NCBI GenBank assembly: GCA_024400305.1 | Contig: JAKSMX010000022.1 | Coordinates: forward strand, 1-47,699 | Origin: Bacteroidales bacterium | Lineage (GTDB): Bacteria > Bacteroidota > Bacteroidia > Bacteroidales > F082 | Length of the DNA: 47,699 nucleotides | Direction of reading: 5' to 3' | In this document: positions 8,255 through 10,762 of the stretch, one piece after another | How the letters are laid out: each line of letters starts with the position of its first letter | Numbering within the stretch: position 1 is the stretch's first letter | Program-made: the position numbers and the translations under genes | The notes under the pieces: model-generated | The model's input: the letters and a program-made list of their open reading frames with translations, nothing else | Database searches by the model: none | Told to the model about the DNA's origin: nothing

Positions 8255-8509
8255 TTATGCCAGTTTCGCTGCGAAATGTGCGAGCTTTGACTTCAAGTTT
8301 GCAGCCTTGTTGCGGTGGATGATGCCGCGCTTTGCCGTGCGGTCGATGACCTTGTACATCTCCGAAAGCTTCGCTTCCGCATCAGCTTTGCTTGTTAATT
8401 CCCTGAAGCTTCTGACTGCTGCGCGCATTGCTCTGGCATAGAAGCGGTTGTGTAAACGTCTTTCTTCTGTCTGACGGATTCTCTTCAACGACGATTTGTG
8501 ATTTGCCAT
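8255..8509 (-). CDS. rpsT: Small ribosomal subunit protein bS20
   Basis: 84 aa, starting MANHKSSLKRIRQTEERRLHNRFYARAMRAA, the typical bS20 N-terminus; AKRGIIHRNKAANLKSKLA near the C-terminus is also conserved. bS20 binds 16S rRNA at the bottom of the 30S subunit. It is transcribed alone: a TAATTTTG promoter element is at 8558-8565 and an intrinsic terminator at 8191-8224. Just upstream lies the left copy of the 96-bp direct repeat that bounds the MntA-HepT cassette. Confidence 0.97.
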   Translation of the reverse strand: MANHKSSLKRIRQTEERRLHNRFYARAMRAAVRSFRELTSKADAEAKLSEMYKVIDRTAKRGIIHRNKAANLKSKLAHFAAKLA

Positions 8510-8557
8510 ATTTCTTATCTATTTTTATTTCTTTTTCTATACTTCTTTTTCGAGCTG

Positions 8558-8565
8558 CAAAATTA
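8558..8565 (-). promoter_or_regulatory. -7 promoter element TAATTTTG for rpsT
   Basis: Exact TAnnTTTG match on the minus strand followed by GCAG, 49 bases upstream of the rpsT ATG. Upstream, TTTTTCGTATGCA resembles TTTTTCGTGTATGCA found ahead of mntA. Confidence 0.6.
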
Positions 8566-8616
8566 TACATTTTTTGCATACGAAAAACATTTTTCTTAAA
8601 AATTTTTTCAACAAAT

Positions 8617-8712
8617 CATTTCCGAGTTGTCACCTTTATTAATGATGTCTTTCAAAGTGACTTCAACGAAGGTGTTTCTTTCTAACCCTTTGGTTTTCAG
8701 CCTCAACGGGAT
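8617..8712 (-). repeat. Direct repeat, left copy (duplicate of mtaB 3' end)
   Basis: 96 bp identical to 9494-9589. In the minus-strand reading it carries 32 codons of the mtaB C-terminal region (from IPLRLKT to NSEM), followed here by ATC? -like sequence giving codons I and C and then a TGA stop, so it is only an orphan gene fragment. The last two codons and stop of hepT (8703-8708) fall inside it. Confidence 0.95.
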
Positions 8713-9095
8713 TTGATTTCCGTCTTGACATCTTCGGCCCACAATTTCCAGTCGGTTTCTTCCAGATATTTTTCAACTTGTTTCCGCAATTCGGGGATGT
8801 TGTTAATGGTAGTCTCATACAAAGTCAAGGCATTCACACTTGCATATCCATGAACCAAAATGTGTCTCATGCCCTGTATAATATCCCATGGGGTCTCCGG
8901 ATGTGTGTCTTTGAATTCTTTTGTCAACATATATGCAGCTTCCCCGACAATTTCAACAGTTTTCATCACGGCAAAGTACGACCTGACATCGTTCACGAAA
9001 TCATTATAAGACATCTCTTTCACGATATTTTCGGCGATTTCGGAATAATGTCTTATGTCTTCAAGCCGCCCCTTGTCTCTGACACGTTCTCTCAT
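8703..9095 (-). CDS. hepT: HepT-like toxin (HEPN domain, DUF86)
   Basis: 130 aa, all-helical HEPN ribonuclease-type protein. The catalytic RX4HXY motif is intact as RHILVHGY (Arg77, His82, Tyr84), and KTVEIVGEAAYMLTKEF is typical of DUF86. In studied MntA-HepT pairs, HepT is an RNA-targeting toxin that is inactivated when MntA adenylylates the Tyr of this motif. The ATG lies 35 bp inside the upstream mntA, the usual overlapping arrangement. Its stop codon is supplied by the 96-bp repeat copied from mtaB, suggesting the original 3' end was replaced or joined at the insertion. Confidence 0.88.
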   Translation of the reverse strand: MRERVRDKGRLEDIRHYSEIAENIVKEMSYNDFVNDVRSYFAVMKTVEIVGEAAYMLTKEFKDTHPETPWDIIQGMRHILVHGYASVNALTLYETTINNIPELRKQVEKYLEETDWKLWAEDVKTEIKSR

Positions 9096-9381
9096 AAATC
9101 AGCTTTTTGTCTTTTTCCGCACTCGCATTGGCGTATGGGCGCAATGAGCCATCCTCCACCAAATCGATTTCCCGGCCAAGTAAGTTCTTCAAATCCTGAT
9201 GCATCTTGGACATTGTAAACAGCGTGAACGGCCCGCCTGAACGGTCAGCCACAAAAAGCACATCAATGTCGCTGTCTGATGTCTCTTCGCCACGAGCATA
9301 CGAGCCAAACAACCATGCCTTCAAGACAGGCTGCGTCTTGAAATAATTTGCAATCATTTCTATCATGTCTTGTGTACTCAT
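9061..9381 (-). CDS. mntA: MntA-like antitoxin nucleotidyltransferase
   Basis: 106 aa from ATG 9381. It is a minimal nucleotidyltransferase with the GSX10DXD motif (Gly26-Ser27, Asp38, Asp40; LFGSYARGEETSDSDIDVLF) and a downstream EIDLVE acid. In characterised systems MntA transfers AMP to a HepT tyrosine and neutralises it. The open frame extends upstream to 9510 through mtaB sequence, but the promoter element at 9405-9412 lies inside that stretch, so ATG 9381 is preferred. It overlaps hepT by 35 bp, and the two form one cassette. Confidence 0.88.
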   Translation of the reverse strand: MSTQDMIEMIANYFKTQPVLKAWLFGSYARGEETSDSDIDVLFVADRSGGPFTLFTMSKMHQDLKNLLGREIDLVEDGSLRPYANASAEKDKKLIYERTCQRQGAA

Positions 9382-9404
9382 GATCCTGCTGTTTAAACAT
9401 GGCG

Positions 9405-9412
9405 CAAAAATA
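9405..9412 (-). promoter_or_regulatory. -7 promoter element TATTTTTG for mntA-hepT
   Basis: Exact TAnnTTTG match followed by GCGCC, 24 bases upstream of the mntA ATG, giving a short leader. Confidence 0.6.
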
Positions 9413-9469
9413 CTATAATTTTTTTGAAAAAAATCAGTGCATACACGAAAAATTTTTTTTAGGAAGTTG

Positions 9470-10762
9470 TCATTTTGCCGGTGTGATGGCTTCCATTTCC
9501 GAGTTGTCACCTTTATTAATGATGTCTTTCAAAGTGACTTCAACGAAGGTGTTTCTTTCTAACCCTTTGGTTTTCAGCCTCAACGGGATGTAATTCTCGC
9601 CGTAGCCTCTCGCCGTGCCGTCGGCCATGACGCGCTCGACCAGCATTTTCTGCGGCTTGCCGAGCATCCGGTTGAAATATTTCAATTTGTTTTCAGACGA
9701 AATCTGTCTTATTACTGCACTCCGTTCGGTCTTCACCGTTTCCGGAATCTGATTCGGCAAGGAGGCGGCTTTCGTTCCTGTCCTGACGGAATATTTGAAG
9801 GTGTGAATGTGGCTGAAGCCGATTTTTCTGCACAGCTCCGCGCTTTCCGCGAAGTCTTCTTCCGTTTCGCCGGGGAAACCGACAATTACGTCCGTCGTGA
9901 TGTTGAAATCTGGAACCGCGCTCTTGATTCTGCCGCACATCTCCTTGAACTGCGCCGCCGTGTAATGACGGTGCATCTCGCGCAAGGTGTTCTCGGCTCC
10001 GCTTTGCAGGCAGATGTGCATGTGCGGTGCCAACTTCGGATTCTCAAACAGCTTCAGGAAACGGTCGCTGAAATTGTCGGGTTCGATCGACGAGACCCTG
10101 ACCCTAAAGTCGCCGTCGATTTTCAGGATTCCTTCAATCAGCTGTTCGAAATTCACGTTTTCGTATTGATAACGCCCCATGTTCACGCCGGTCAGGACGA
10201 TTTCCTTGAAGCCGTGGTCAACCACCTGACGTATGTTTTCGTATATCTCTTTGTCGCAACGGCTTGTGGCTCTGCCTCTTACGTTCGGGATAATGCAATA
10301 GGAACAGAAGTTGTTGCATCCGTCGTGTATCTTTATCAGGCTTCTGGTGTGGAAGGTGTCGAAAGCCGGGCTGTAACTGAAAAGGTCTTTGTCGAAGCCT
10401 TCGGGGTCAACGGGTTCGCCTTTTACATAGCCGTCAATGATGTTGAATAGTGCGTATTTCCTCTCGTTGTCGATGGCGAAGTTGATGACGCCGGAGTCGA
10501 GCATCTCCTGTCTCCTGTGGTTCACCATGCAGCCTGTCGCGGCGATGACGGCGGTGGGGTGGGAGCGGCGTATCTGATTCAACGCCTGCCTGCATTTCTG
10601 GTCGCTCTGGTTCGTCACAGTGCATGTGTTTACGATGTAGATGTCGGCATCGTCATCATTCTCAACGATTTCGTAGCCTGCTGCCTTGAACTGCGACGCC
10701 AGCGCATCCGTCTCATACAGGTTCACCCTGCAACCCAATGTCTTAAACGAGACCTTCACCAC
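9470..10762 (-). CDS. mtaB: tRNA (t6A37) methylthiotransferase MtaB
   Basis: 430 aa radical-SAM enzyme that adds a methylthio group to t6A at tRNA position 37. The N-terminal UPF0004 domain carries the three cysteines for the auxiliary 4Fe-4S cluster (Cys11, Cys47, Cys78) and the radical-SAM CX3CX2C is at Cys149/153/156 (CNNFCSYC). TLGCRVN near the start separates MtaB from MiaB and RimO. A C-terminal TRAM-like part follows. It starts at GTG (10762 or 10759) within a GAAAGT repeat, 19 bases after the miaB stop, so the two thio-modification genes form one unit. Its last codons are duplicated at 8617-8712. Confidence 0.93.
   Translation of the reverse strand: MVKVSFKTLGCRVNLYETDALASQFKAAGYEIVENDDDADIYIVNTCTVTNQSDQKCRQALNQIRRSHPTAVIAATGCMVNHRRQEMLDSGVINFAIDNERKYALFNIIDGYVKGEPVDPEGFDKDLFSYSPAFDTFHTRSLIKIHDGCNNFCSYCIIPNVRGRATSRCDKEIYENIRQVVDHGFKEIVLTGVNMGRYQYENVNFEQLIEGILKIDGDFRVRVSSIEPDNFSDRFLKLFENPKLAPHMHICLQSGAENTLREMHRHYTAAQFKEMCGRIKSAVPDFNITTDVIVGFPGETEEDFAESAELCRKIGFSHIHTFKYSVRTGTKAASLPNQIPETVKTERSAVIRQISSENKLKYFNRMLGKPQKMLVERVMADGTARGYGENYIPLRLKTKGLERNTFVEVTLKDIINKGDNSEMEAITPAK
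9494..9589 (-). repeat. Direct repeat, right copy (inside mtaB)
   Basis: 96 bp identical to 8617-8712 with no mismatch. This copy is part of the intact mtaB gene and is followed by seven further codons (EAITPAK) and the stop at 9470. The cassette between the copies contains mntA and hepT only; the repeat offset is 877 bp. Confidence 0.95.

Follow-up and report, generated by a model that had tools for sequence, protein, structure and literature searches.

The window, a stretch of 47,699 nucleotides that forms contig C15 of a genome (G000) in the genus Candidatus Limimorpha, contains a gene for an mtaB-like tRNA methylthiotransferase followed by mntA, hepT and rpsT, the last of which is the usual downstream gene of mtaB in this genus (Table 1). 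Both mntA and hepT are located between two direct repeats, a right copy (R) and a left copy (L), which enclose 781 bp and agree in 96 of 96 bases, as originally predicted, with mismatches at the flanking bases on both sides; a relaxed repeat search stretches the pair to 117 nt at 92% identity. The mtaB reading frame runs 24 nt beyond R, comprising seven further codons and a stop, and hepT obtains its stop codon from L, again as proposed. Among the ORFs of at least 60 aa, none between the copies is integrase-sized, and neither of the two products encoded there is a site-specific recombinase according to a family search, in agreement with the notion that the unit lacks an integrase. A promoter-like stretch precedes mntA. 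The Bacteroidales −7 promoter element has the consensus TAnnTTTG, and a sequence of this type also lies upstream of mntA in four other genomes (G041, G074, G058 and G011).

Table 1. Features of the mtaB-rpsT region, in window coordinates.
Feature	Position	Strand	Remarks
mtaB-like tRNA methylthiotransferase gene	9470..10762	-	UPF0004 and Radical_SAM
R, 96-bp repeat copy, coding, near the mtaB 3' end	9494..9589	-
mtaB tail after R, seven codons (EAITPAK) and stop	9470..9493	-	similar tails after R in G041 and G074
Promoter-like TATTTTTG	9405..9412	-	fits the Bacteroidales −7 element TAnnTTTG
mntA, antitoxin gene (predicted), 106 aa	9061..9381	-	motif GSX10DXD
hepT, toxin gene (predicted), 130 aa	8703..9095	-	motif RX4HXY; last codons and stop in mtaB-derived DNA
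hepT/L junction, 20 nt	8713..8732	-	differs from G041 at 5/20 positions
L, 96-bp repeat copy, placed in the ancestral mtaB-end context	8617..8712	-
Native mtaB end and mtaB-rpsT spacer	8510..8616	-	mtaB-frame stop at 8608-8610
rpsT, ribosomal protein S20	8255..8509	-	usual gene downstream of mtaB in the genus

The whole window contains no third exact copy of the 96-bp repeat, and a search of G000 with window positions 8560-9620 as query returned no further copy, so that a dispersed element was rejected. An insertion sequence or MITE was likewise rejected, because none of 12 inverted pairs has its arms at the insert ends and the duplication, at 96 bp, is not short.

The product of hepT matches the Pfam family HepT-like (5.2e-21) and that of mntA the family NTP_transf_2 (1.1e-14), so that the two genes form the adjacent PF01934 (HEPN) and PF01909 (MNT) pair by which class I HepT/MntA systems are recognized. 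The signature motifs are present in both proteins, with RHILVHGY at position 77 of HepT (RX4HXY) and GSYARGEETSDSDID at position 26 of MntA (GSX10DXD). In the available excerpts of PMC7641770, RX4HXY and GSX10DXD are given as the class I motifs, and the HepT/MntA pair SO_3166/SO_3165 of S. oneidensis combines PF01934 and PF01909 with both of them, as observed here. Judging from these sequence features, the pair in the window is predicted to be a class I MntA-HepT toxin-antitoxin system, with HepT as the presumptive toxin. Toxins of this class are RNases that are neutralized by adenylylation. A search of the PDB yielded no relative of HepT and two weak nucleotidyltransferase matches for MntA, and in PADLOC, MntA resembled the PDC-S09 candidate models and HepT matched no model. 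A second, diverged HepT (39%) is encoded in the same genome (G000:C12:98341-98682, L098), with an MntA-like gene alongside.

Filled and empty mtaB-rpsT sites in Candidatus Limimorpha

We searched 99 genomes of the genus, 90 of which gave a strong match to mtaB, and examined the mtaB loci of 46 genomes, drawn from the best matches and including the window's own, with one genome sampled per species. In 39 of these loci, mtaB lies directly by rpsT and no cassette is present. Three carry the cassette with both repeat copies, namely the window, Candidatus Limimorpha caballi (G041, JAGHUX010000016) and G074 (JAUNNU010000116), and in two others mntA-hepT follows an mtaB end that is present only once (G058, JAFYIE010000010, and G062, with broken genes; accessions were assigned through near-identical sequence). 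The remaining two are G064, with an island of ~38.6 kb, and G015, whose contig ends before any rpsT. In G062 (L090, 6023-6491), the remnants of mntA-hepT lie right after mtaB and are followed by other genes and then rpsT. The island of G064 is situated between mtaB and rpsT (L109 and L110; G064:C15, about 41.7-80.3 kb) and, judging from its ORFs, we take it to be a Mu-type prophage.

Both G041 and G074 share the arrangement and the hepT/mtaB fusion of the window, and their cassette regions are 86% and 84% identical to it, respectively, over ~1.3 kb including both repeats. Because two other genomes have the same arrangement, chance or assembly error is very unlikely to be the source of the repeats; the latter had been listed as a finding that would overturn the original prediction. 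Six genomes have MtaB proteins that are at least 91% identical, and the cassette is present in three of them and absent from G006, G069 and G070. In the latter three, the empty site is seamless and contains the repeat only once, precisely the allele that had been suggested as a check.

In G006, the sequence after the mtaB end is that following L in the window and not that following R. When the mtaB side of R and the rpsT side of L were joined in silico to a 300-nt site for each of G000, G041 and G074, the joined sites aligned gap-free with the three empty sites over all 300 nt in nine of nine comparisons (245-286 matches), whereas the 100 nt downstream of R could be aligned with the empty sites only by introducing 34-114 gap positions. 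This difference shows that the surroundings of L are the ancestral ones of the mtaB end and that R reads into a tail, EAITPAK, that belongs with the insert. Tails of this type are absent from all three empty sites, and similar ones were found by eye in other species of the genus. The proposal that R represents the true end of mtaB thus holds insofar as R is joined to the gene, but the gene continues past it and the ancestral downstream context lies with L. The more general idea, an insertion at the 3' end of a gene with regeneration of that end, is supported by these comparisons.

The occurrence of a housekeeping gene 3' end on both sides of an insert is also typical of integrative elements that enter such ends and restore them, and the locus could accordingly be viewed as a tyrosine-integrase element that targeted the mtaB end and was then reduced to its cargo, leaving att-like repeats behind. 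We consider this origin highly improbable. Unlike such elements, the cassette has only 781 bp between its copies and contains no integrase, and the 96-bp repeat is longer than their usual att core. In addition, the island of G064 occupies the same place without a second mtaB end, G058 and G062 hold mntA-hepT together with other genes there behind a single mtaB end, and the repeats at other bracketed loci (see below) vary in both sequence and length.

Similarity of the repeat copies and age of the arrangement

Within a 94-nt core, R and L differ at 0 (G000), 5 (G041) and 4 (G074) sites, as opposed to 9-19 differences between copies from different cassette genomes. Fourteen core sites are alike within each genome and different among genomes, and none splits R from L. 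Between G000 and G041, 13-14 of the 94 sites differ, yet the copies are alike inside each genome. A tree that groups the copies by side was rejected (AU p=6.7e-8; delta lnL of 40.9 in the test and 35.5 when fitted alone). Because the copies group by genome and grouping by side is rejected, the identity of R and L most likely results from gene conversion, one of the causes originally offered, and not from youth. Perfect flanking repeats are therefore no proof of a recent insertion. Among the L copies, 11 of the 19 variable sites fall on third codon positions of mtaB (P=0.024), a share similar to that in the R copies (11 of 22) and a bias that weakly suggests copying of L from the coding copy.

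The original prediction had also offered a recent arrival of the cassette. We rejected it as our preferred explanation, since the arrangement recurs in G041 and G074 with a divergence comparable to that of neighboring genes. Among the three cassette genomes, third-position identity is 64-84% for mntA/hepT. The corresponding values are 73-77% in miaB, 77-78% and 67-76% in two segments of mtaB, 60-76% in gyrA and 66-84% in rpoB. Since the values for mntA/hepT lie within the range of the other genes, the arrangement may be about as old as the split of the species, or recombination may have carried it from one to another. In the cassette tree, G000 pairs with G041, G074 joins next and G011, G058 and G062 stand apart, and the miaB tree places G000 with G041, G006 and G069 (support 0.95), leaving G074 and G070 outside. 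The gyrA and rpoB trees instead group G000 with G074 (support 1.0; rpoB was not found in G070), and in a tree of the mtaB 5' part, G070 is not joined to G074 (support 0.49 at one node), contrary to gyrA and miaB. Moreover, G000 and G041 agree at 83-84% of third positions in the cassette, as compared with 60% in gyrA and 66% in rpoB. Given that the cassette tree differs from those of gyrA and rpoB and that the G000 and G041 cassettes are more alike than these genes, the locus has probably recombined between species, and the discordance among the cassette, miaB, gyrA and rpoB trees suggests a history that is partly its own.

The 20-nt junction next to L, which does not read as mtaB, is common to G000 and G041 (15/20 alike), as are the R tail and the adjoining spacer (83/108, with 13 gaps), and the matching stretch of G074 is still mtaB-like. 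The junction probably represents what decay has left of the upstream portion of the initial duplication and, because it is common to both genomes, G000 and G041 most likely go back to one shared insertion. A comparison of the 40-nt flank next to the core takes in some hepT codons, so that its divergence overstates the decay of the duplication.

It is conceivable that the cassette instead arrived by repeated, independent and later insertions at the same place, each duplicating its own mtaB end, with the copies being alike simply because they are young. Independent insertions would likewise cluster the copies by genome, and they would agree with the empty site of G070 beside its close relative G074 and with a cassette tree unlike those of gyrA and rpoB. 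A separate event in G074 is compatible with its mtaB-like junction, which G000 and G041 do not have, and the comparison with the single G070 copy, from which the L and R copies of G074 differ by 1 and 3 sites, also fits a later event in this genome; the pattern of presence and absence, in turn, fits the empty sites either as losses or as the ancestral state. Nevertheless, we regard this scenario as rather unlikely, considering the common fusion point of G000 and G041, their non-mtaB junction and their common R tail and spacer, as well as the finding that the three cassette genomes all have a hepT gene of 130 codons whose end lies within mtaB-derived codons, in an identical frame.

Proposed origin and relation to known systems

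HepT homologs with 86-88% identity are found in G058, where mntA-hepT follows mtaB, and in G011 (CAJOHD010000004, assigned through near-identical sequence), where the pair resides at another locus, after a gene that we take to be ppdK. The DNA common to G011 and G058 begins ~110 bp ahead of mntA, reaches as far as the hepT stop and outlines a shared module. L073 and L092 contain a repeat (TCATTTCGACCG.AGCGAAGCGGAGTGGAGAAATCT) that precedes mntA by about 70-110 bp and marks the upstream limit of this common DNA, and similar copies follow mtaB in other species. HepT comprises 122 aa in G058 and 121 aa in G011, in comparison to which the 130-aa proteins bear a short extra tail. At the threshold used, no flanking repeat was detected around the G011 cassette (L039), and among 30 HepT loci of the genus only three are spanned by direct repeats, all of them representing the mtaB case and leaving 27 without such repeats. 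The module is thus not bracketed wherever it occurs.

We favor, with a probability of roughly two in three, an insertion of a class I MntA-HepT module that generated a long target duplication without a recombinase of its own, after which the copies evolved in concert and some lineages probably lost the module precisely. This reading builds on the identity of the copies, the arrangement shared among genomes, the seamless empty sites and the clustering of the copies by genome. A module with its own promoter-like stretch would have inserted between mtaB and rpsT in an ancestor of six sampled Candidatus Limimorpha genomes, duplicating at least 96 bp of the mtaB 3' end (114 nt are still recognizable in G074). 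The duplication would have left an mtaB end and the rpsT spacer intact, with the mtaB copy supplying the final codons and the stop of hepT. The route may have been recombination, assisted by homology or microhomology, between an mtaB-rpsT allele that had the cassette and one that was empty, and a single junction between the two could give the observed layout in one step. Later recombination between the copies would have homogenized the core, with the stretch of L outside it decaying in G000 and G041. If loss is indeed the direction of change, recombination of this kind probably also removed the module precisely from G070 and from the lineage of G006 and G069. Sister species may thus be without the pair and retain no trace of it. 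The suggestion that the cassette may be a minimal mobile unit gains partial support from the homologous mntA-hepT pair at another locus in G011, but the unit encodes no transposition function.

Nobusato et al. (2000) reportedly described the insertion of restriction-modification systems with long target duplication. How small addiction modules move without a transposase has, to our knowledge, remained an unsettled question since such duplications were recognized around restriction-modification genes. In the available excerpts of PMC1643837 and PMC3874152, insertion with long target duplication is described for Helicobacter pylori and tied to restriction-modification genes; in those of PMC3874152 and PMC2654758, the pattern again concerns restriction-modification systems, and in the portion of PMC3031569 at hand, the phrase occurs as a reference title in the same context. 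The mtaB locus resembles these cases in that a small addiction-type unit is enclosed by direct duplications on the order of 100 bp, with insert-free alleles in related genomes (here G006, G069 and G070). It differs from them in its cargo, a toxin-antitoxin pair instead of restriction-modification genes, and in its host, a Bacteroidales lineage instead of Helicobacter, as well as in the signal of concerted evolution across species and in the stop codon that the duplication provides to the toxin gene. By analogy, the locus appears to follow the pattern of insertion with long target duplication, with another cargo class. Our searches of open-licence literature revealed no description of such a duplication for MntA-HepT, and it may have been reported elsewhere. 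The locus represents a toxin-antitoxin case that combines empty sites, an older shared arrangement and a measurable gene-conversion signal with brackets in other Bacteroidales; as insertion, loss and repeat homogenization can be measured in one locus family, the question of how such modules move becomes testable.

Direct repeats around other modules

Direct-repeat pairs span the module in 9 of 29 HepT loci from GTDB genomes. Leaving out the Limimorpha loci L111-L114 as well as L133 and L139 (cut at the gene, not scorable), 7 of the 23 other MntA-HepT loci of this one GTDB scan are spanned, whereas 20,000 random placements gave 0.41 on average and never more than 4; two of the seven, L115 and L116, lie on one contig and have a common repeat, so that the independent number is 6. 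Several of the bracketing repeats, in our reading, appear to hold a terminator-like hairpin or a promoter-like stretch. Other sets gave few such cases: 2 of 30 PF01934 loci across the order (L187, 56 nt, and L191, 120 nt, next to nine other pairs), 2 of 30 DUF4160 loci of the genus, 1 of 19 mtaB loci (by a 37-nt repeat) and 0 of 30 acetyltransferase loci, whose five other pairs all fall in one locus. In 25 rpoB/gyrA loci, whose genes are themselves too long for the spacing limit of a spanning pair, no repeat pair was found in 140 kb. Given 7 of 23 against a mean of 0.41 and the low counts in the other sets, brackets of this type are overrepresented around closer MntA-HepT relatives and confined to a minority of loci elsewhere.

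These counts also bear on the simplest account of the window, an ordinary tandem duplication or assembly artefact that flanks the toxin-antitoxin pair by chance. Direct repeats as such are not rare, since the GTDB loci, 262 kb in all, contain 15 other pairs. However, the excess over random placement around MntA-HepT, the lack of brackets at acetyltransferase loci and the recurrence of the arrangement in three separately assembled genomes leave this account with very little probability.

Gene ends also occur in duplicate around other genes. In G109 (L040, 826-2764), a HepT-containing stretch is flanked by two copies of a 336-nt gene 3' end that are 87% identical; their spacing of 1606 is just beyond the spacing limit, placing the locus outside the spanning count, and a DNA comparison of its upstream region with 24 other loci of the genus gave no match. 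In G011 (L114, 6987-7943, and the same place in L255), the end of a lipid A acyltransferase gene occurs as two 134-nt copies (93%) that enclose a DUF4160-DUF2442 pair. This insert is absent from all 19 other acyltransferase loci fetched, 16 of which have one copy of the gene end, two a second, shorter match (L258 and L264) and one none at the threshold (L272), and the sequence beyond the far copy in G011 was not found in any of the 19, so that none of them represents a strict empty site. In one of them, from G075 (L258, 597-1632), the second copy of the gene end measures 104 nt (80%), and a different ORF of 158 aa, with a weak match to LPD3 below the family cut-off, lies between the copies. 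L258 thus appears to represent the same landing place as that of the DUF4160-DUF2442 pair, with different cargo.

It is tempting to speculate, although we hold it to be doubtful, that in gut Bacteroidales, toxin-antitoxin modules have inserted time and again with no recombinase of their own, duplicating ~45-340 bp of a neighboring gene end or terminator. The duplication would make the insertion harmless and the cassette reversible and seamless, with gene conversion maintaining the similarity of its repeats. If true, landing at gene ends would be a general mode of entry for addiction modules and not confined to restriction-modification systems. On the RUG12193 contig (L116, 4566-7212), MntA-HepT, a PIN-domain gene and a pair of a 200-aa and an HTH gene follow each other, with copies of a single terminator-like repeat between them, in what looks like an array of toxin-antitoxin units.
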